Source: a virus
Length of the DNA stretch: 23,582 nt
Virus record (IMG/VR): IMGVR_UViG_3300035698_013561
Span: 1-23,582 of that record
Strand: one strand, 5' to 3'
The translations under genes were made by a program, and so were the position numbers. Under the pieces are notes generated by a model, which was not told the origin of the DNA, ran no database searches, and saw only the letters and a list, made by a program, of their open reading frames with translations. Position 1 is the first letter of the stretch. Every line of letters begins with the position of its first letter. This document shows positions 1-16,318 of the stretch, piece by piece.

Positions 1-1712
1 CCTTTACCATGAGGGCCAGTTCCATCTGGTGCTGTACCATCTTTTAGTGCTTCCTTTAAATCATCTTGCTTATCTGATTCTTTAGTAGGATCTTTACTAT
101 CAACATCTGCATTAGATGTATCAGCTTTATCTGATGCCTTAACAACATCTTTACTATCTGACTCTTCTGTAGGATCTAGATTATCCTTATCAGCCTCTGA
201 TGCATCCGATTTTGAGCTTTTCTTGCTATCAGCAGCTTTACCACTATCTTCTTTAGAAGGAGCCTTAGAATCATCATCTGCTTTAGTTGTATCTGCTTCA
301 GATCCTTCAACTATAAATAACTCTCCTGTTTCTACATCTTCATAAATCTTAAGTGGTTTGAAACCATACTTCTTTAATAGCTCATTAACTTTAGCACCAT
401 ATTCTTTACCTGTTTTAATCTTGCCATCACCAAGTGATGCATTTAATACTTTTAAATCTGCACTAAATTTAGATAAGTCACCATCACCAAGCTTTGTTAA
501 AACTTTTGCAACATTAATGACTTCCCGATATAGTTCAACAGAAAGGCTAAGAGGATTAAGCATCTTAAACGCCGTCCTTAAGCCTGATCTCAGTTTTGTA
601 ATCCCATGATTAAAAAGTCTATTTAAACGAGCTCTTTCAATCCCATCAGCATCTTTAGCTTCTGCTACAGCTTTACCATTTTCATCTTTAGAAGGTGCCA
701 TAGCATCTTTGTCTGCGTCTGCACTATCTGATTCATCAGATACCTTAGTTACATCTTTACTATCAGACTCTTTAGTTGGATCTTTACTATCCTTATCAGC
801 ATCTTTACTATCAGAAGGGTCTGCTACTTTTACAGTATCTTTACCTTCAGTATCTTTATCGACACTAACTTCTTCTTTAATAGAGTTAGATAATTCAGCT
901 ACACCAACTACTTTTTCAAAACCCTGTGCTGTTTTAACAGTTACAACGTCCCCTGCAATAGATTTAATTGTTGCGAAGTCCCCACCATACATTACTTTCA
1001 TTCCAGGTTTTGCAGTTTCAATAGCAAAAACTGAATTTGATGCAGAACTTTCCTTTACGTCTTTTTTCTTATCCACTACGGGTGCTTTAGAATCTTTACC
1101 ATCTTGGTTAAATCCAATAGCAGGAGTTACTTTAGAAAACTCCACATCTTGATCATTACCTTCAGTATCCGTAATAGTAACCTGAGTGCTTTCATCATCT
1201 AAAATGTTAGTAACTATAAAAGGTTTTTCTTCCATAAATACTTTCATACCAATCTTAGGCACAATATCAGTTTCTTCTGTTATTGCCTCATCATCATCAT
1301 CTTCATCTTCTTCGTTCTTTTTTCCAGCTCCTATTGCTGCCCCAATTGGACCACCTAATGCTGCTCCAACAGCTGCACCTAATCTACCTTCATCAGTATC
1401 TTCATCGTCATCAAGATCTTCTTCATCTTCAGACTCTAAAACAGTTTCAAGCAATGTTGCTGTACCCGCAAGAATCCTCTGTCTATCCTGTTCAGATATT
1501 GTACCCAATTTACCTACTCTAATTACATTCTTTGCATCTACTATATCTTCTAACAAATCTTCTACAACAGAATTAAAACCCTGTCTTGTTAATCTATACT
1601 TCGCTATTCTTTCAAAATTTTCCACTAAAGATACAGCATCTCGTCTAGACTTCACCTCTACTCTAATTCCATTTTCTTTTAATATACGTATAACATGCTC
1701 TGATTCTTTCAC
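1..1712 (-). CDS. Acidic repeat-rich phage protein with two SH3-like segments (partial)
   Basis: I do not recognise the family. The frame starts at GTG (1712-1710) behind an AAAGGGG ribosome site and stays open for 570 codons to the left edge, so the C-terminus is missing. Residues 1-95 are a mixed, probably helical region. Residues 96-145 are acidic and enclose a glycine-zipper stretch at about 111-130 (GAAVGAALGGPIGAAIGAG). Residues 150-200 and 232-282 look like two copies of a small beta barrel, each opening with a GMKV motif. About 295-360 and 475-558 are low-complexity Lys/Asp/Ser repeats with recurring DPTKESD. Between them lies a more ordered helical part (360-470). The visible end reads DGTGPHGK. 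It starts two bases after the glycyl-radical mini-gene stops and is last in the visible head operon, so a virion or head role is possible but unproven. Confidence 0.8.
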   Translation of the reverse strand, partial: MKESEHVIRILKENGIRVEVKSRRDAVSLVENFERIAKYRLTRQGFNSVVEDLLEDIVDAKNVIRVGKLGTISEQDRQRILAGTATLLETVLESEDEEDLDDDEDTDEGRLGAAVGAALGGPIGAAIGAGKKNEEDEDDDDEAITEETDIVPKIGMKVFMEEKPFIVTNILDDESTQVTITDTEGNDQDVEFSKVTPAIGFNQDGKDSKAPVVDKKKDVKESSASNSVFAIETAKPGMKVMYGGDFATIKSIAGDVVTVKTAQGFEKVVGVAELSNSIKEEVSVDKDTEGKDTVKVADPSDSKDADKDSKDPTKESDSKDVTKVSDESDSADADKDAMAPSKDENGKAVAEAKDADGIERARLNRLFNHGITKLRSGLRTAFKMLNPLSLSVELYREVINVAKVLTKLGDGDLSKFSADLKVLNASLGDGKIKTGKEYGAKVNELLKKYGFKPLKIYEDVETGELFIVEGSEADTTKADDDSKAPSKEDSGKAADSKKSSKSDASEADKDNLDPTEESDSKDVVKASDKADTSNADVDSKDPTKESDKQDDLKEALKDGTAPDGTGPHGK

Positions 1713-1713
1713 G

Positions 1714-1896
1714 TTAATTCCCCTTTCTAATTTCAAAATTTACTCTTTGATGGTACTCATCTTTTTTTCCTTTATTCCAGTTAGATATAGGTCGGTAATA
1801 TCCAACAATCCTTGAATATACTTCTGTATCTGTACCAACCACACTCTTTAACTCTTCTTTTAACTCACTTATTGCTACTGCGACTTGTGTGCTCAA
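1714..1896 (-). CDS. NrdD-type glycyl-radical domain mini-protein
   Basis: This 60-residue protein resembles only the extreme C-terminus of class III anaerobic ribonucleotide reductase (NrdD). The core is EVYSRIVGYYRPISNWNKGK at 25-44, with the candidate radical glycine at Gly32 inside RIVGY. In full NrdD this glycine carries the radical that starts nucleotide reduction. Here the catalytic barrel, the active-site cysteines and the zinc-binding cysteines that precede the motif in NrdD are all absent; the protein contains no cysteine. It starts at TTG with AGGAG six bases upstream, 13 bases after the neck gene ends, and abuts the next gene. It might be a spare glycyl-radical part, like YfiD for pyruvate formate-lyase, or a domain reused for another job. 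The motif match is clear; the function is inferred. Confidence 0.8.
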   Translation of the reverse strand: MSTQVAVAISELKEELKSVVGTDTEVYSRIVGYYRPISNWNKGKKDEYHQRVNFEIRKGN

Positions 1897-1909: not shown

Positions 1910-2893
1910 CTATTTAATAACAACAAAAGCTGGATTACGCTTGGTATTAAATGCCTCTAATACCTCTTGAATCTCTCTCTCAGCTTCTGACAACAAGGTA
2001 TCTCCATCGATATCTAGTGTACCACCTGGAACTTCCACCCCAGAATACTTACCTCTTACTCGGCCTAATACTTCTTTTGTTTTCGCTGTTGCCAACTTAA
2101 TGAAATTACCTGTATTTTCTGAGGCCACATCCGCTAAAGTAGGCTTAATAGCCAATTTTACACTGGCTGTTCCAACTGCGTTTGCTTGTATAAATAACTT
2201 TTTCTCTGGCGCATAATATTCCCAGTTTAAATCAGACCCCAATAAGTTTGTTTGATCTTTTAACGATTTCATTGTCTGATAATACTGAGCTGCTGTTTCT
2301 GTAAGTCTATTCATCTTTATTCCTGTTATATCATATATCCCATATGCTGAAAGCACTTTATTACCCTCTTCAGGAGTTGTTTGTTCTACTGACAAAACAT
2401 CAAGTACCTTAAAAGGTTCCTGCTTATACTGTACCATCACTGTTAAATTCTCTGTAGTGACTGCATCCAAAACAATACTAATTTCACCCGTATTATAACT
2501 AATTGTGCCAGATGCCACCCCAATACCAATAATAAGTCCATTGTGATCATCTATAGCTACAATATCACCAATACTAATTGATACAGTTCCAGCCTTTACA
2601 TCCAAAGTTTCTAAGCTTGCTAATACTGCAGTAGTTGCCCCTACTGGTATAATTCCTAGCGTTTGCTCTACACTAATAAAATCTGTTTTTGGAATTGTTG
2701 AAAGCTCACATACTGTACTGCCATCACTGACACTAACTGTGCTGTACCTAAAATTTGTAAAGTAATCATCATACAAATCTAATGCTTGCTGAATAGCTTC
2801 ATTTATATGGTCATCAAGTAACTCAACTTGTACTATACCATGACCTAATCCAAGCTTAATCTTTTGCTTTACTTGTTGTAGTGTATATCTCAT
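1910..2893 (-). CDS. T4 gp13-like neck / head-completion protein
   Basis: This 327-residue protein probably sits at the head-tail joint. The N-terminal helical part (1-60) and the C-terminal segment with LGRVRGKYSG and a following PGG...DGDTLLSEAE stretch (about 275-315) resemble the gp13-type neck proteins of T4-like phages, which are about 310 residues long. Residues about 101-158 form a glycine-rich beta module (SISIGDIVAIDDHNG, then SGTISYNTGEISIVLD) that matches a segment of the major capsid protein in this window and looks like an insertion. The ATG overlaps the TAA of the preceding HeH gene (TAATG) and has no strong ribosome site of its own, so it is probably translated by coupling. 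The family call rests on remembered motif similarity and synteny. Confidence 0.65.
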   Translation of the reverse strand: MRYTLQQVKQKIKLGLGHGIVQVELLDDHINEAIQQALDLYDDYFTNFRYSTVSVSDGSTVCELSTIPKTDFISVEQTLGIIPVGATTAVLASLETLDVKAGTVSISIGDIVAIDDHNGLIIGIGVASGTISYNTGEISIVLDAVTTENLTVMVQYKQEPFKVLDVLSVEQTTPEEGNKVLSAYGIYDITGIKMNRLTETAAQYYQTMKSLKDQTNLLGSDLNWEYYAPEKKLFIQANAVGTASVKLAIKPTLADVASENTGNFIKLATAKTKEVLGRVRGKYSGVEVPGGTLDIDGDTLLSEAEREIQEVLEAFNTKRNPAFVVIK

Positions 2894-3333
2894 TACTTAA
2901 TTAATTCAAAAGCTTCTACATTTGGATTATAACTGCTATCAATTATATCTCCTGCACCAATATATCTAAGAGTCTTATCTGGATTGTGCATTACCTGCGT
3001 TTTACCTGATATATTTATGTATGTTCCAATAGATTCTACTTCTACTATAGGTTCTTCTACTTCTACTATAGGTTCTACTTCAATAGACTCATCATCTACA
3101 ATAATTTCTTCTTCATCTGCTTCTACTATAGGTTCTTCTACTTCTACTATAGGTTCTACTTCAATAGACTCATCGTCTACAATAATTTCTTCTTCATCTG
3201 AAATATCTTGAACATTATTACTCATTGACTCTAACACTAACTCTTTCAATTCTGCTAACTTGGCGTTACTTTTGTATTCTACACCCTTATCATCTAATTC
3301 TTGCTTTAAATCTGCAATTGTTGTTTTACCCAT
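2893..3333 (-). CDS. Acidic HeH/LEM-like small head-region protein with tandem repeat
   Basis: The protein has 146 residues. Residues about 4-34 (TIADLKQELDDKGVEY, then KLAELKELV) look like a HeH/LEM/SAP-like helix-extended-helix domain, common in small phage proteins encoded beside capsid genes. Residues about 45-99 are strongly acidic, with two nearly identical 27-residue units built from EEEIIVDDESIEVEPIVEVE. The last 45 residues (GKTQVMHNPDKTLRYIGAGD) look like a short beta tail. It starts with ATG behind a GAGGAGG-type site, downstream of the terminator that follows the capsid gene, and overlaps the neck gene. A head or neck accessory role is inferred from position only. Confidence 0.75.
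   Translation of the reverse strand: MGKTTIADLKQELDDKGVEYKSNAKLAELKELVLESMSNNVQDISDEEEIIVDDESIEVEPIVEVEEPIVEADEEEIIVDDESIEVEPIVEVEEPIVEVESIGTYINISGKTQVMHNPDKTLRYIGAGDIIDSSYNPNVEAFELIK
3040..3200. repeat. 81-bp near-perfect tandem duplication inside the HeH gene
   Basis: Bases 3040-3119 and 3121-3200 are copies of one 81-base unit that differ at a single inner position (CATCATC versus CATCGTC) plus the last base. The unit is 27 codons, so the frame is kept and the acidic segment is doubled. Each unit also carries shorter internal repeats of TTCTACTATAGG. The near identity suggests a recent duplication or ongoing expansion and contraction. Confidence 0.95.
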
Positions 3334-3432: not shown

Positions 3433-4761
3433 CTAGGTAGCTGAGACTGTAAATGTTCTGTAGAATTTAGTATTTACTTTAGTAAATGCATCTCTACTTA
3501 ATAGACCTTTTCTTATTTTCATGTCATCTGGATTCAATAGAGAATCTGTTAACATGATTGAATATGGTGAGAATACTGCACCAGACTCTAAGAAACCTTC
3601 ACCCTTATAACCAACTAAAACCTGAGCAGTTGGGAAATAAATGTTTTGAATTACGATCCAAGTATCATTTAATACACCAATTTTACCGTTTGGATTAGTA
3701 GTTGCAGTAGCTTCTGGTCTAAATGTTGGCAATGTTTTGATGATGTTAGCTGCGTCGCTTCCAACAACAATTACGTTACCTGCGCCTCTTAAACACTGTG
3801 TATAAATATAGTTAGATTCTTCAACTAACTTATCTATAAAAGTTCTCTTATGATCATCATAAGAAATATAAGTAGGGCGAGTTTTATCCCAAGATGAACC
3901 AGCAGATGCTGCTGCATATAGCTGATTAATAACATCTAGTGAAATTTCTCTTGAAACCGCTCTTGACATTTCAGCTGTAAATGTTTCATCCCCTGAAACA
4001 CCATGAACAGCCATCATATCTTGAATTGCTTGTGGAGTCCACTTAGCTCTTAAAATTCTATCCCCAACCTGAACTGCTTGAGAAGTAATCTCAAAGTTAA
4101 TTTCTGGCTGCTGAGTATTTCCTTCATTCACGTATGAATAAGTTGATACTGCATCATCAGCTGATGCGTCATCAAGAGTAATTGAAACTACGCCTGTTGA
4201 ATAAACAACTGAACCTGTAGCAATACCTGATCCAGTGATAACACCTTCGCCATCATCTGTTCCAACAATAGAACCTATAGTTATAGATAATGAACTAGGA
4301 ACTATGGCTTTCCATGCTAGAGTTGTACTAACTGCTGTTGAAGAAGAACTTCTTGTTTCAGTTTCTTCATCAATAATTGCAGATGCATACTTATCAGAAC
4401 TGTTGTTATAAACAGCCTGCCCTGCAGTAATAGCCCCTTTAGTTGAACCATACTCTGGTTGAAAAGTAAAAATCTGACCTACTGGACCTTCAAGAGGTTG
4501 TACTGATACTAAATCATTAATAGATAAAGTAGGGTACACTCTTCTTATTAAAGGATACGCATATTTTTTAAATTGTGCGATATTCCCTGAATCTGTATCC
4601 TCTGCTAGTAATATAAATTTTTCTTCGTTTTCTAGTAATCTTGCTGTGTTACGTTGATTTTCGTCTCCTTCAACGCCTTCTAGTAAATAAGACCACTTTT
4701 CCATAAGTACCTTATCTTCTAGGATTTTTTGTTCCATTAATGATGTTGCTAAACTTGTCAT
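3433..4761 (-). CDS. T4 gp23-like major capsid protein
   Basis: This 442-residue protein forms the capsid shell. It follows the gp23 pattern: an N-terminal region with RNTARLLENE (37-46), then YPLIRRVYPTLSINDLVSVQ and EGPVGQIF at 69-98, a central RAKWTPQAIQDMMAVHG (238-254) and a C-terminal part with VLVGYKGEG (381-389), VFSPY and KFYRTFTV. Residues about 155-212 are a glycine-rich beta module (SITIGSIVGTDDGEG) also found in the neck protein. Gp23 is usually longer (521 residues), and its N-terminus is removed by the prohead protease; no cut site was assigned here. The ATG overlaps the scaffold stop (TAATG) behind AAGGAG. A terminator follows, so this gene may end a head transcript. Confidence 0.92.
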   Translation of the reverse strand: MTSLATSLMEQKILEDKVLMEKWSYLLEGVEGDENQRNTARLLENEEKFILLAEDTDSGNIAQFKKYAYPLIRRVYPTLSINDLVSVQPLEGPVGQIFTFQPEYGSTKGAITAGQAVYNNSSDKYASAIIDEETETRSSSSTAVSTTLAWKAIVPSSLSITIGSIVGTDDGEGVITGSGIATGSVVYSTGVVSITLDDASADDAVSTYSYVNEGNTQQPEINFEITSQAVQVGDRILRAKWTPQAIQDMMAVHGVSGDETFTAEMSRAVSREISLDVINQLYAAASAGSSWDKTRPTYISYDDHKRTFIDKLVEESNYIYTQCLRGAGNVIVVGSDAANIIKTLPTFRPEATATTNPNGKIGVLNDTWIVIQNIYFPTAQVLVGYKGEGFLESGAVFSPYSIMLTDSLLNPDDMKIRKGLLSRDAFTKVNTKFYRTFTVSAT

Positions 4762-5801
4762 TATCTTTTCTCCTTTTTCTTTATTCCGGCCATTTTTTGT
4801 TGATCAGACTTAACCTTGTCTACTTTATTATCTACTTCCTCAAGAATTGACATAACCTTACCCTTTGGATAACCTGTTATATCTGCCTCTTCAAATATAG
4901 ATTTCTTTACTCCAACATTTCCATATACGTTAATAAGCTTCTCAACTTCTTCAATGTTGGCACATTCTAATAATGTATCTGAATATTGTCTAAGATGTAA
5001 ATCAGTGTCTAATGTTTCATACACATATAATTTTGCACCTTTTTTCTGAGCTTCAACTTCAAGTACTTGATTCTCAGCAATCAAGTTATCAATTTCATTA
5101 CCACGCTCTTCAGTTACTTTAAGCAACTGCTCTGATAGTGATTGTATAGTTGCTGCTGCTTCATCCAATTCAACCTGCAAAGATTGTGTTGCTTCAGTAA
5201 TAGCGCTATCTATATTAATTGTTACCTGCTCTTGTGTTACTCTTAAAGATTCCAACAAGCTCTCTCCAATTTCTGTAATACTGGTTTCCATTAATTTTAT
5301 CCTTTCAAAAAAATATCTTATTAATAGATCATGTGGTTTACTTGCAATAATTTCACCTATTTGCTTTACTGTCAACCATAGTGTTTCAGACATCTCTTCA
5401 TTAATTGATCCATCACCTTTTGGATACTCTGATGGTGTAGCACACTCTACAGTATACCCATAAATTCTCATACTTGTACTTTTACATGCAGGTATATTTT
5501 CATAAATAGATTCTTGTATAATAGCTTCAGTAACACCCGCTTCTTCTCTAAGCTCCCTTAGAGCTGCATCCTTAGAAGTTTCTCCCTTTTCTATTTTACC
5601 GGATAAAACTGTATAATATCTTTGCTTTGTATTATCTTTTATATAATAAGGAGGACAATTTTCTAAACGTATACCGTACAGTTTAGTTTTATCATCTTTA
5701 ATTATATATGGTAATACGTGTACAAATTGTGACTCATGCATAATTTCATACCCATCCAATTTTACAATTTCTACCCATTTACCTTTGAATAATGTTTTCA
5801 T
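4761..5801 (-). CDS. Nudix hydrolase-prohead scaffold fusion
   Basis: Two parts are visible. Residues about 25-165 are a Nudix hydrolase domain with a complete Nudix box at 68-90: G68, E74, then RELREEAGV with R82, E83, E86 and E87 in the expected spacing. Such enzymes cleave nucleoside diphosphate-X compounds. Residues 171-346 are charged, coiled-coil-rich and Lys-ended (KKKEKR). They lie between protease and capsid genes, exactly where T4-like phages encode the gp22 scaffold. The start chosen is ATG 5801: AGGAG lies 5 bases upstream, and ATGA overlaps the previous stop. A longer reading from ATG 5819 would put that AGGAG inside the gene. An internal in-frame ATG (Met171, 5291-5289) has its own ribosome site, so a 176-residue scaffold-only product is likely. 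The Nudix call is firm; the scaffold role is inferred from position and composition. Confidence 0.88.
   Translation of the reverse strand: MKTLFKGKWVEIVKLDGYEIMHESQFVHVLPYIIKDDKTKLYGIRLENCPPYYIKDNTKQRYYTVLSGKIEKGETSKDAALRELREEAGVTEAIIQESIYENIPACKSTSMRIYGYTVECATPSEYPKGDGSINEEMSETLWLTVKQIGEIIASKPHDLLIRYFFERIKLMETSITEIGESLLESLRVTQEQVTINIDSAITEATQSLQVELDEAAATIQSLSEQLLKVTEERGNEIDNLIAENQVLEVEAQKKGAKLYVYETLDTDLHLRQYSDTLLECANIEEVEKLINVYGNVGVKKSIFEEADITGYPKGKVMSILEEVDNKVDKVKSDQQKMAGIKKKEKR
5289..5306 (-). promoter_or_regulatory. Internal ribosome site and ATG for a scaffold-only product
   Basis: On the minus strand GAAAGGA (5306-5300) is followed after 8 bases by ATG (5291-5289), in frame with the Nudix-scaffold gene at the junction between its two parts. 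The spacing is ideal for translation initiation. The product would be METSITEIGE... and 176 residues long. This resembles the nested protease/scaffold arrangement of lambda C and Nu3. Confidence 0.65.
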
Positions 5802-5995
5802 CTTTTCTCCTGATAGCATCCACTTTGAATACCTGACCTTCTATTCTTGCAATCTAAATTTTTACACTCAAAACAGTAATGCCAATATTTTGTTGTTAAA
5901 AGTGAATGACACTCTTGACACCTGTACTGACCATCATTATCTAGATATATTCCAAGTGGAGGTTTGTTCTGCTTATTACACCATAATAATGACAT
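5798..5995 (-). CDS. Small zinc-ribbon-like protein
   Basis: This 65-residue protein contains CQEC (about 26-29) and CFEC (about 41-44), followed by CKNLDCKNRR. This pattern is expected for a four-cysteine zinc ribbon with an extra Cys pair. AGGAG lies just upstream of its ATG. Its TGA overlaps the ATG of the Nudix-scaffold gene, so the two are probably translationally coupled. T4-like phages often carry tiny prohead core genes (gp67, gp68) in this place, but I see no sequence match to them. Zinc binding is inferred from cysteine spacing; the role is unknown. Confidence 0.7.
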   Translation of the reverse strand: MSLLWCNKQNKPPLGIYLDNDGQYRCQECHSLLTTKYWHYCFECKNLDCKNRRSGIQSGCYQEKR

Positions 5996-6208: not shown

Positions 6209-7108
6209 TTAAATTAGTCCTGCCATTCTTCGCTGATGATATAGCATCATCTCATCTGTGTCTGTACTAATACCTTCATAGATACTAAGCAATCCATCTG
6301 CATTAACTTTGCAAAAAAGCTCTTTAAGTGCAACACGCAATTTTGTTTCTTGCAGCTCAACAATTCTCAACCATTTTTTTCCTGACAACTGTTGTAATAA
6401 AGCCCCTGCTTCATATATATCACCCTTAGCAGCTTCTTGTAAATGACCAATCTTTAAGCCCGCCTTATAAAAAGCTTCTGCCAATGCGCTTTGTAAATAA
6501 GAGTCATTTTGAAGTTCTATAATAAATTGTTCCCGAACTGCTGTGTTTGATTCCATAAGTAATGCTTCTTCTAATGTAATAATCTGCCCCTCTTGCACAA
6601 CTGGATGTGCACCAAAAGTTGATGGGTCCGCTACAGCATCAAATGATATTAATCTAAAATCTGGAGCCACCTTTAATTCAGATCCTTCTCTAACCAAACT
6701 TCCACTACCTCTACTAGATATCCCAGGTTTACAACCAGCTGTTAATATAGCTTTTAAATCTTGGCCCTTCCTTGTATTAAGTACTTCATACTCACCAATT
6801 ATTTCATTTCCATTCCAAGATAACTCTGTAATAACATGAGAAGCATTTTGTAAACTCGTACTCACAACTTGAGGGTGATCCAACTCTCCAAATAATGACC
6901 TTGACTCAATTTGAGATTGAAGCTTAGATATCTCTCTCTCTAATAATGACTTAGCATAAACTCTACCATTCTGGTTTTTAGTCTCTGCCATTTGAAATCT
7001 TCCACGTGCTCTTACAACGGTACCCTTTTGAATATCACTTTTTGCTTCTACTATCTGTAGGTCACAAAAACTATTATCATATACTTCTATCAATGGTTTA
7101 TTACTCAT
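6209..7108 (-). CDS. T4 gp21-like prohead maturation protease
   Basis: This 299-residue protein is a serine protease of the T4 gp21 type, which cuts scaffold and capsid proteins inside the prohead. The motifs are in order: NGRVY (48-52), SLFGELDHP (71-79) with the probable catalytic His78, and PGISSRGSGS (128-137) with the probable nucleophile in Ser131/Ser132, then FDAVADPS (156-163). The protease core ends near residue 175; the remaining 120 residues are helical and may be a propeptide-like or core-binding tail. ATG follows ATGAACTAG-type spacing with AAGGAGATG upstream. Gene order protease, small genes, scaffold, capsid is as in T4. Confidence 0.92.
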   Translation of the reverse strand: MSNKPLIEVYDNSFCDLQIVEAKSDIQKGTVVRARGRFQMAETKNQNGRVYAKSLLEREISKLQSQIESRSLFGELDHPQVVSTSLQNASHVITELSWNGNEIIGEYEVLNTRKGQDLKAILTAGCKPGISSRGSGSLVREGSELKVAPDFRLISFDAVADPSTFGAHPVVQEGQIITLEEALLMESNTAVREQFIIELQNDSYLQSALAEAFYKAGLKIGHLQEAAKGDIYEAGALLQQLSGKKWLRIVELQETKLRVALKELFCKVNADGLLSIYEGISTDTDEMMLYHQRRMAGLI

Positions 7109-13312: not shown

Positions 13313-14941
13313 TTATAATAATGTTCCTTTAAGCTCTACTTTTTCCTTTACCAATGCTGTCATACACTTAACAGCTTCTTGTAATCTAGAATTACCTACT
13401 AATGATGCCTCAAACTTTTCTTTCACACTTTTACAATAAGATTCACCTAAAGTAGGATCCTCATCTTGCTCATCTGAAGACTCACTTCCATTAGTAAACT
13501 CAGACACTAACTTCTCTGCATTAGCTGTTGCTAAAGCTGAGACTGCCTCAGTATCTATCTTTTGTGCATCTAATAGATTTAATATTTTATCTGCCTCAGC
13601 TGGTGGCACTTTAAATATCTCTATAAGAATAGTTTTTTGAGAATAATAATCTTGCAATGCTGAAGCTACTGATGCCCTAATCTCTAATGCTTCTAATCTT
13701 TGCTGCTCTTCTAAGGCACTAACTGAAGCAAATACAATATTAAAATCTGATGGTGCCTGCTTTAAAATATATGTTAAATGAACTTCAGCAATCTGTGTTA
13801 AATAACCTTTAAAAACATTTTGTATTCTTTTTATCTTTCGTGCCCAACGAATATCTGAATTTGCAAGATTCTTTTTTGTCTCTCCACCTTCCATATAACT
13901 TAAATAGTCAGATGGAATTTTTAAGGACTCAATTGATTTCTTTTTAAAATATTCTATATCATCTATATGCCTCTGTGGGTCTGTTTGAGGTAATACGTCA
14001 ACCGCAATCTTTCGACCTCCTACTTCTGGAAAGAAATAGTCTTGAGTGTCGCCAATTGCATTAACTACAGATTTAAACTCACCACGAGCAGTATCCAATA
14101 ACTTTTTACGCCTAAACATACTAGCTACACCCTCTACAGTCTGCTTTTGTCTATCTTCTGATATACCATCCACGGGTACAGAAAATACATACTTATCTGA
14201 ACCCTTAGTTAATCTCTGCATTAATAATGCTGTTTCAGCAGCTTCTAACATCTTTAATGCCCGTGTAGCATCTGCTAAAACGGATTTCCCATACATCTGA
14301 TACCTATTAGTTGAAGGTATTTTTAAATGTCCCACTTGCCATGTTTTAAATTCTATATCTTCTGCAGCTATCTGTGTACCAAAAAATAAAGAAGGCTTTT
14401 GAATATACCTTAAGGGTTTCATCCTTTCATCTGGTAATATATATATTGATTCGGGTGGAAGTGCCTGTGTAGATACTACTCCTACAACTTTATCTAAAAC
14501 TACCTCTTCAAAGACATCCCCATATTTACAGTAATCTCTAATTATTGCCCACATTTTATCAATAGAATCTAACTTAAGGATATCATATAATAAATTTTCT
14601 GTTAGCTTAACAACACGAGCATCATCACTTTCTACCCAAAAAGGCTTTCCACGAAAGTAATCCAACTGTGTAGCGTCATCCGCATATAAATCAAGTGCAG
14701 CAGAGCACATAGCATAATTATCATCTAAGTGATCATAATACTTGTAATTCATAACTCGCTGTGCATTATCATAACCAAATGTTGCCTGTAAATCTGCTAG
14801 TCTATCACTGGTTACAACTACTCCTGTTGCAGATGTCTCTATAGGTACAAAAGCCTTTGTAAATAACGTTCCAGTTATTTTATTGACCAATTCTAAATTT
14901 GCGCGTCCTCTTGATAATTGTTTTGAAAATTGACTAATCAA
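13313..14941 (-). CDS. T4 gp20-like portal vertex protein
   Basis: This 542-residue protein builds the ring through which DNA enters and leaves the head. The length is close to T4 gp20 (524). Recognisable stretches include YKYYDHLDDNYAMCSALDLY-like sequence near 68-86, ALDLYADDATQ, IIRDYCKYGDVFEE (about 138-151), the PDERMKPLRYIQ region, and DVLPQTDPQRHIDDIEYFKKK with SLKIPSDYLSYMEGGE (about 316-355), typical of gp20-family portals. The C-terminal 60 residues are acidic and variable. The start is TTG (14941-14939) with AAAGGGG nine bases upstream. The small-gene and intergenic stretch before it may hold a promoter. Confidence 0.93.
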   Translation of the reverse strand: MISQFSKQLSRGRANLELVNKITGTLFTKAFVPIETSATGVVVTSDRLADLQATFGYDNAQRVMNYKYYDHLDDNYAMCSAALDLYADDATQLDYFRGKPFWVESDDARVVKLTENLLYDILKLDSIDKMWAIIRDYCKYGDVFEEVVLDKVVGVVSTQALPPESIYILPDERMKPLRYIQKPSLFFGTQIAAEDIEFKTWQVGHLKIPSTNRYQMYGKSVLADATRALKMLEAAETALLMQRLTKGSDKYVFSVPVDGISEDRQKQTVEGVASMFRRKKLLDTARGEFKSVVNAIGDTQDYFFPEVGGRKIAVDVLPQTDPQRHIDDIEYFKKKSIESLKIPSDYLSYMEGGETKKNLANSDIRWARKIKRIQNVFKGYLTQIAEVHLTYILKQAPSDFNIVFASVSALEEQQRLEALEIRASVASALQDYYSQKTILIEIFKVPPAEADKILNLLDAQKIDTEAVSALATANAEKLVSEFTNGSESSDEQDEDPTLGESYCKSVKEKFEASLVGNSRLQEAVKCMTALVKEKVELKGTLL

Positions 14942-15630: not shown

Positions 15631-16059
15631 TTAATTTATCCACTTGCTCTCAAAAATTGTAATACAAAGGCCCTTATCCTTCGAAGCCGACAAGCTACTC
15701 GCCGTCACCTTCATCTTATGAATATAGGCAAGTGTTATTAAAGCGTCCTCTACCCCTTGTCTATCTTCCAGCTGATGATCAATAATAAGCATTAATTTCT
15801 TTGCTTTTACCTTTTTATTAAATTTCCACCATGGCATATTACGTGTAACTACATAATTTGTTACCCCACGCACCTGCGAAATTGCCTCTTTACTCTCTGT
15901 CAACTTGGTTGTAACAACTAAATTATCCTTATCTTTATCAATAGTAGAAGTAAATCTATGCGTAACTAAATCTGTATAAGTCTTAATCAATGTTTTTGTA
16001 TCATGTGCAATTGAAATCACATAACACACTAATGTTAATTCATATCTAGTCTTCTTCAT
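15631..16059 (-). CDS. 142-residue hypothetical protein
   Basis: The family is not recognised. ATG at 16059 (MKKTRYELT) was preferred because GGGA lies six bases upstream. An earlier in-frame ATG at 16077 would lengthen it by six residues and deepen the overlap with the co-chaperonin gene. The sequence looks like an alpha/beta fold: ELTLVCYVISIA at the start, KLMLIIDHQLEDRQGVEDAL in the middle and GLCITIFESKWIN at the end. No catalytic motif is evident. Confidence 0.7.
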   Translation of the reverse strand: MKKTRYELTLVCYVISIAHDTKTLIKTYTDLVTHRFTSTIDKDKDNLVVTTKLTESKEAISQVRGVTNYVVTRNMPWWKFNKKVKAKKLMLIIDHQLEDRQGVEDALITLAYIHKMKVTASSLSASKDKGLCITIFESKWIN

Positions 16060-16318
16060 CAGCAATCCCATATACATCTATAATATCAATAAGATACCTG
16101 TTTTCAGTTACACGTGCAGTAGCTGCCATTTGAAAAAAAACTTCCTTACCCCTAAGTTCAGCTTTTAATGTAGCGTCTAAATCCATACCCAAACCAACAA
16201 CAGTACCTTTTCTAGAATATCGTGGATCAAATGATGGTTTTAATATTAAACCACCAACTGTCTTTGTTTCTTTCTCTTCATTAAATTCAATTAGTAATTT
16301 TTTCCCTAGTACTATCAT
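16046..16318 (-). CDS. GroES-like co-chaperonin
   Basis: This 90-residue protein matches the 10-kDa co-chaperonin fold: LGKKLLIEFNEEKETKTVGG (4-23) followed by LILKP, then KGTVVGLG (37-44), a central KAELRGKEVFF and the end YLIDIIDVYGI. The ETKTVGGLIL stretch aligns with the GroES mobile loop, whose hydrophobic tripeptide docks on GroEL; here it would be LIL. T4 phage makes gp31 for the same purpose, because host GroES cannot fold gp23 with GroEL. A gp23-like capsid protein lies in the same array, which supports this role. AAGGAG precedes the ATG. Confidence 0.85.
   Translation of the reverse strand: MIVLGKKLLIEFNEEKETKTVGGLILKPSFDPRYSRKGTVVGLGMDLDATLKAELRGKEVFFQMAATARVTENRYLIDIIDVYGIADEED

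Follow-up and report, generated by a model that had tools for sequence, protein, structure and literature searches.

A Nudix hydrolase–scaffold open reading frame with a putative nested scaffold-only start in the head module of an uncultured T4-like phage

The C and Nu3 genes of bacteriophage lambda place a protease and a scaffold in one reading frame, and an in-frame internal start yields the scaffold alone. Enzymes also precede scaffolds in single open reading frames (ORFs) of T4-type head modules, as in Bacillus phage SP-15, Listeria phage LIS04, vB_SagM-GXN1 and several environmental T4-like phages, where the fused enzyme is the S77 protease. The protease-scaffold ORFs among the relatives collected here (L004, L005, L006, L012-L015, L041, L054, L074 and L076, including SP-15 and LIS04) are 477-921 aa long. 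The major capsid gene of SP-15 (L004; 7031-7837) is annotated as two joined pieces flanking an endonuclease gene, and is thus probably interrupted by an intron.

In T4, the prohead core comprises the scaffold gp22 together with internal proteins and Alt, which are brought in by short N-terminal targeting peptides that the protease gp21 removes (PMC9026906, PMC5694885). The cleavage motif of gp21 is L/I-x-E, and gp22 itself is cut into fragments (PMC9026906). The protease of a giant phage, SPN3US gp245, removes its own C-terminus (PMC5694885).

Here, we describe an ORF in which the N-terminal enzyme is a predicted Nudix hydrolase and the C-terminal half resembles a scaffold. It is carried by one contig, from an uncultured T4-like phage; the entire 23,582-nt stretch of DNA that was analysed is referred to below as the window. 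As in lambda C/Nu3, an enzyme and a scaffold share one frame that contains an internal in-frame start for the scaffold alone, represented here by start signals only; unlike in lambda, the protease is encoded by a separate gene. Literature searches turned up no publication describing a Nudix-scaffold fusion.

Organization of the head module and the Nudix half

The T4-type head module lies on the minus strand of the window and consists of gp20, an S77 protease, a 65-aa ORF, the Nudix-scaffold ORF and gp23 (Table 1). The initial annotation had placed the scaffold-like half exactly between the protease and capsid genes; this is accurate on the capsid side, whereas on the protease side the 65-aa ORF intervenes. 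The whole open frame, 4761-5819(-), encodes 352 aa, and its seventh residue is the Met at 5801 that opens the 346-aa form. This Met is the likelier start, because it has the Shine-Dalgarno (SD) sequence AGGAGAAAAG, overlaps the stop of the 65-aa ORF as ATGA, and yields an N-terminus (MKFKTLWKGKY) that matches that of a standalone Nudix protein, L265 (MKTLFKGKW).

Elsewhere in the window, acidic repeat proteins with KDSKDPTKESDS-like and IEVEPIVEVEEP-like repeats are encoded near the capsid gene, at 3-1736(-) and 2893-3333(-). A GroES-like co-chaperonin, which is expected with a T4-type head, is encoded at 16046-16318(-) (Cpn10 4e-4, slightly below the curated cut-off).

Table 1. Positions of the head-module genes and of the sequence features discussed in the text
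Feature	Position in window	Strand	Remarks
Portal gp20	13313-14941	-	Head module
Prohead protease, Peptidase_S77	6209-7108	-	Pfam 8.6e-23; ~100-aa C-terminal extension
Protease C-terminus RRMAGLI, scaffold-type end motif	6212-6232	-	Sole non-scaffold ORF with the motif among 2,214
Cys-rich, zinc-ribbon-like ORF, 65 aa	5798-5995	-	Between protease and Nudix gene; stop overlaps Nudix start
Nudix-scaffold fusion ORF, 346 aa from Met at 5801	4761-5801	-	Open frame to 5819
Predicted Nudix hydrolase half, 170 aa	5292-5801	-	Pfam NUDIX 3.1e-9; matches entire standalone phage Nudix proteins
Nudix box GKIEKGETSKDAALRELREEAGV	5532-5600	-	Read directly from translation
T7 run	5307-5313	-	+1 base gives TGA at once; -1 base gives TAA four codons on
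Shine-Dalgarno GAAAGGA for putative internal start	5300-5306	-	Top of 98 internal ATGs, -9.4 kcal/mol
Predicted scaffold half, gp22-type, 176 aa (METSITEIGE...)	4761-5291	-	Profile match, L/I-x-E richness, AF2 helix
ILE, an L/I-x-E site	4839-4847	-	17 residues ahead of end motif
KMAGI, scaffold-type end motif	4782-4796	-	Motif count in scaffolds versus other ORFs
Major capsid protein (MCP) gp23	3433-4761	-	Pfam Gp23 2.7e-55; start overlaps scaffold stop as TAATG

The Nudix box at residues 68-90 of the 346-aa form is intact, as first annotated. The superfamily signature GX5EX7REUXEEXGU is fully present inside the Pfam NUDIX domain, which passes its cut-off. Relatives of this half include L171, the closest at 40% identity, L265 (33%) and megaphage proteins (~30%). 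Most of these relatives are standalone proteins of 180-191 aa from very large phages and environmental contigs, and the standalone forms end at the position matching the internal ATG of the window. L171 comes from a different phage, where it is part of the head module, and bears an unrelated C-terminal extension. Searches of genome contigs returned generic Nudix matches only, with weak E-values, and PADLOC likewise gave only weak, generic matches.

For the Nudix domain of L171, the predicted structure has its best matches among ADP-ribose pyrophosphatases and NudE (E 3.5e-8), with T. thermophilus ADPRase, NudE and NUDT5 as the top structural matches; the window's own model, which is of low confidence and poor in this half, returns the same names weakly (E 4.7e-3). 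From the fold of L171, the one clear match, and the weak agreement of the window's own model, we infer an ADP-ribose-type substrate. Compared with ADP-ribose pyrophosphatase-type Nudix enzymes, the sequence falls under every NCBIfam cut-off, all matches of the NCBIfam subfamily models to the Nudix half (that for ADP-ribose pyrophosphatase included) lying far below, and its catalysis is a prediction. Phage Nudix domains occur in NAD/ADP-ribose conflict systems (PMC7824862).

In very large phages (L009, L010, L265 and L007), the Nudix relatives have RNA ligase or NADAR-like genes nearby; the NADAR-like ORF of L007, assigned by eye without a model, follows the capsid gene. The head module of L262 (IMGVR_UViG_3300017527_000466) contains a portal, a papain-like protease, a Nudix domain joined to an unknown C-terminal domain, a HAD-like phosphatase, and a Fic domain within a 1,602-aa ORF.

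The scaffold half and its C-terminal motif

Wherever a relative has both a protease and a capsid gene, the ORF immediately preceding the latter encodes a scaffold, in several instances fused to the protease. The C-terminal half of the Nudix-scaffold ORF likewise immediately precedes gp23, within a head module of the gp20-gp21-gp23 type. BLAST and phmmer found no match to this half, and neither did the Pfam model T4_CASP (PF25623), which matches just 8 of 42 scaffold ORFs from the relatives. In a global hhalign comparison with a profile built from 45 scaffold C-termini of related phages, it aligned end to end with a score of 22.6. The best of 200 shuffled sequences scored 8.1, the reversed sequence 4.4, and the best of 400 natural unrelated C-termini 14.7. 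The match is remote, since members of the profile score >218 against it. The scaffold half contains 12 L/I-x-E sites versus 4.5 expected (p<0.0005); the Nudix half contains 6 versus 3.6 expected (p 0.13, not significant). An AF2 model places a helix at residues 165-259, and in it the last Nudix helix continues unbroken into the scaffold helix.

Profile match, end motif, protease-site richness and gene position all agree with the original description of the second half as scaffold-like, and by these features it is a divergent scaffold of the T4 gp22 type. In common with the gp22 family (T4_CASP and relatives), it is located between the protease and gp23, has a helical body and contains many L/I-x-E sites. 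It departs from the family in being just 176 aa long (the family spans ~250-500), in having no T4_CASP match, and in carrying a Nudix domain in front.

The end motif of the window's scaffold, [KR][LIM]A[GNS][LI], recurs across a large subgroup of the scaffolds of environmental T4-like phages. It was found in the last 14 residues of 42 of 97 distinct scaffolds and of 1 of 2,214 other ORFs, counts that are descriptive only, as the motif was picked after the alignments had been viewed. An [ILV]xE sequence stands exactly 12 residues ahead of it in 37 of 42 scaffolds from relatives (L025-L090), versus a spacing of 17 in the window. Together, [ILV]xE and the terminal motif are a candidate for a cleavable prohead-targeting tail in environmental T4-like scaffolds. 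The C-terminal extension of the window's protease is rich in L/I-x-E and is absent from unfused relatives of 195-235 aa. The possibility that this extension is a full scaffold homologue was ruled out (profile score 0.6), the end motif alone being in common. A tail common to scaffold and protease suggests that the motif serves as a prohead address tag.

Internal start and junction of the two halves

At the junction, GAAAGGA is followed by an in-frame ATG at 5291. The SD pairing energy of -9.4 kcal/mol ranks first among the 98 in-frame internal ATGs of the window, which sets it beyond chance, and equals that of the capsid gene's own start (-9.3). The initial annotation had proposed that a 176-aa scaffold is made alone from this ATG, as in lambda C/Nu3, and the start signals for such a product are indeed present. 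The chief product is most likely the scaffold alone, with the Nudix-scaffold as a minor form.

Absence of the fusion from related phages had been named as a ground for doubting it. About 100 head modules of relatives lack the fusion, which partly favours that doubt, but none of these phages is close, the best capsid identity being 39%. Searches of viral contigs with the whole protein or the capsid yielded no close relative, a wider capsid search peaking at that same 39%, and searches with the junction DNA, homopolymer variants allowed, yielded no match; in both, near-identical records may have been omitted. L171 was rejected as a parallel fusion, as its extension is not scaffold-like and a separate ORF of 571 aa probably encodes the scaffold there; the SD of the ATG at the matching place in L171 ranks below the top 8 among 75 internal ATGs. 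L171 supports the presence of Nudix enzymes in head modules, but not a Nudix-scaffold fusion. Programmed slippage at the T7 run, which would make the Nudix protein alone, was also rejected, because 21 comparable in-frame slippery runs in the window's genes leave this run in no way singled out.

We consider the fusion probably real and recent. It counts against the fusion that the standalone Nudix relatives stop precisely where the two halves meet, which leaves the loss of one stop codon as all that joins them. The same junction could belong to separate overlapping Nudix and scaffold genes, with a one-base indel at T7 or A4, arising in assembly or from a minority variant, that mimics a fusion. 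Several features are as this explanation would have them: the linker has zero residues, the SD and ATG are intact, each of the other two frames meets a stop in the 16 bases ahead of the ATG, and removal of one A from A4 would create TAATG, as at the border between the scaffold and MCP genes. The Nudix relatives are, moreover, separate proteins of matching length. Yet AT-rich DNA often has stops in its alternative frames, and the homopolymer runs in the window's other genes (16 of at least 7 bases and 41 of at least 6) break no frame, which implies a low error rate per run. We judge an indel to be an unlikely source of the joined frame, although its probability is far from negligible.

Possible roles of the two products

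We favour, at a probability of roughly one half, a reading in which one frame encodes two proteins, a free gp22-like scaffold and a minority Nudix-scaffold that brings the enzyme into the prohead. Translation from 5291 would yield an abundant 176-aa scaffold, which would build the core of the prohead before the S77 protease cleaves it at its L/I-x-E sites. The minority form, translated from 5801, would have an ADP-ribose-type Nudix enzyme on the scaffold N-terminus; it would co-assemble with free scaffold and so place some of the enzyme inside the prohead. Since LME, ITE and LLE sites stand at the beginning of the scaffold half, the protease could release the Nudix domain by cleavage near the junction, and the freed enzyme would stay with the virion. 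The sequence itself displays the two domains, the nested start signals, the resemblance to scaffolds and the abundance of protease motifs; we infer that both starts are used, that the long form is incorporated and cleaved, that the enzyme is retained or injected, and what it hydrolyses.

Alternatively, the fusion may exist while the Nudix domain has no prohead role, its targets being cytoplasmic nucleotides or the ends of RNAs, with the long form tolerated or kept out of the core. Standalone Nudix accessories are common in related phages away from head genes, and some are found near RNA ligase or NADAR genes, as a cytoplasmic function would lead one to expect. Against this, scaffold features persist through the last residues of the fused half, from which core binding by the long form would still be expected, and the nearest Nudix relative is likewise in a head module; we judge this reading unlikely. 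Far less probable still is that no internal initiation takes place and every scaffold subunit bears a Nudix domain. Such an arrangement would be in keeping with the single open frame and with the unbroken helix of the AF2 model, but with the hundreds of scaffold copies that are required, an extra 20-kDa domain per subunit would overfill the core, and the window's best internal SD is positioned exactly at the junction.

If the two-product reading is correct, the scaffold itself would fill the carrier role that targeting peptides play in T4. The proposed Nudix cargo would resemble Alt and the internal proteins in residing in the prohead core and being processed by the protease; it would differ from them in that its carrier is the scaffold and lies C-terminal to the cargo. 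A more speculative extension, to which we attach little weight, is that the few subunits bearing an ADP-ribose-type Nudix domain act as cargo carriers, the enzyme being freed inside the capsid by the protease and injected together with the DNA, so that ADP-ribose-type signals or caps would be stripped off at the onset of infection, and the end motif acting as the prohead address tag.

The observation made in the initial annotation is confirmed, and the interpretation offered there is plausible and in part supported, namely for the Nudix domain, the scaffold character of the second half and the nested start. The Nudix-scaffold ORF is a variant of the nested enzyme-scaffold arrangement. If real, it would show a phage naturally using its own scaffold to bring a nucleotide enzyme into the head, a task for which T4 relies on a short targeting peptide, and would provide a clean test system for scaffold-borne cargo. 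The end motif of the scaffolds and of this phage's protease is a separate, testable candidate for prohead targeting in T4-like phages.
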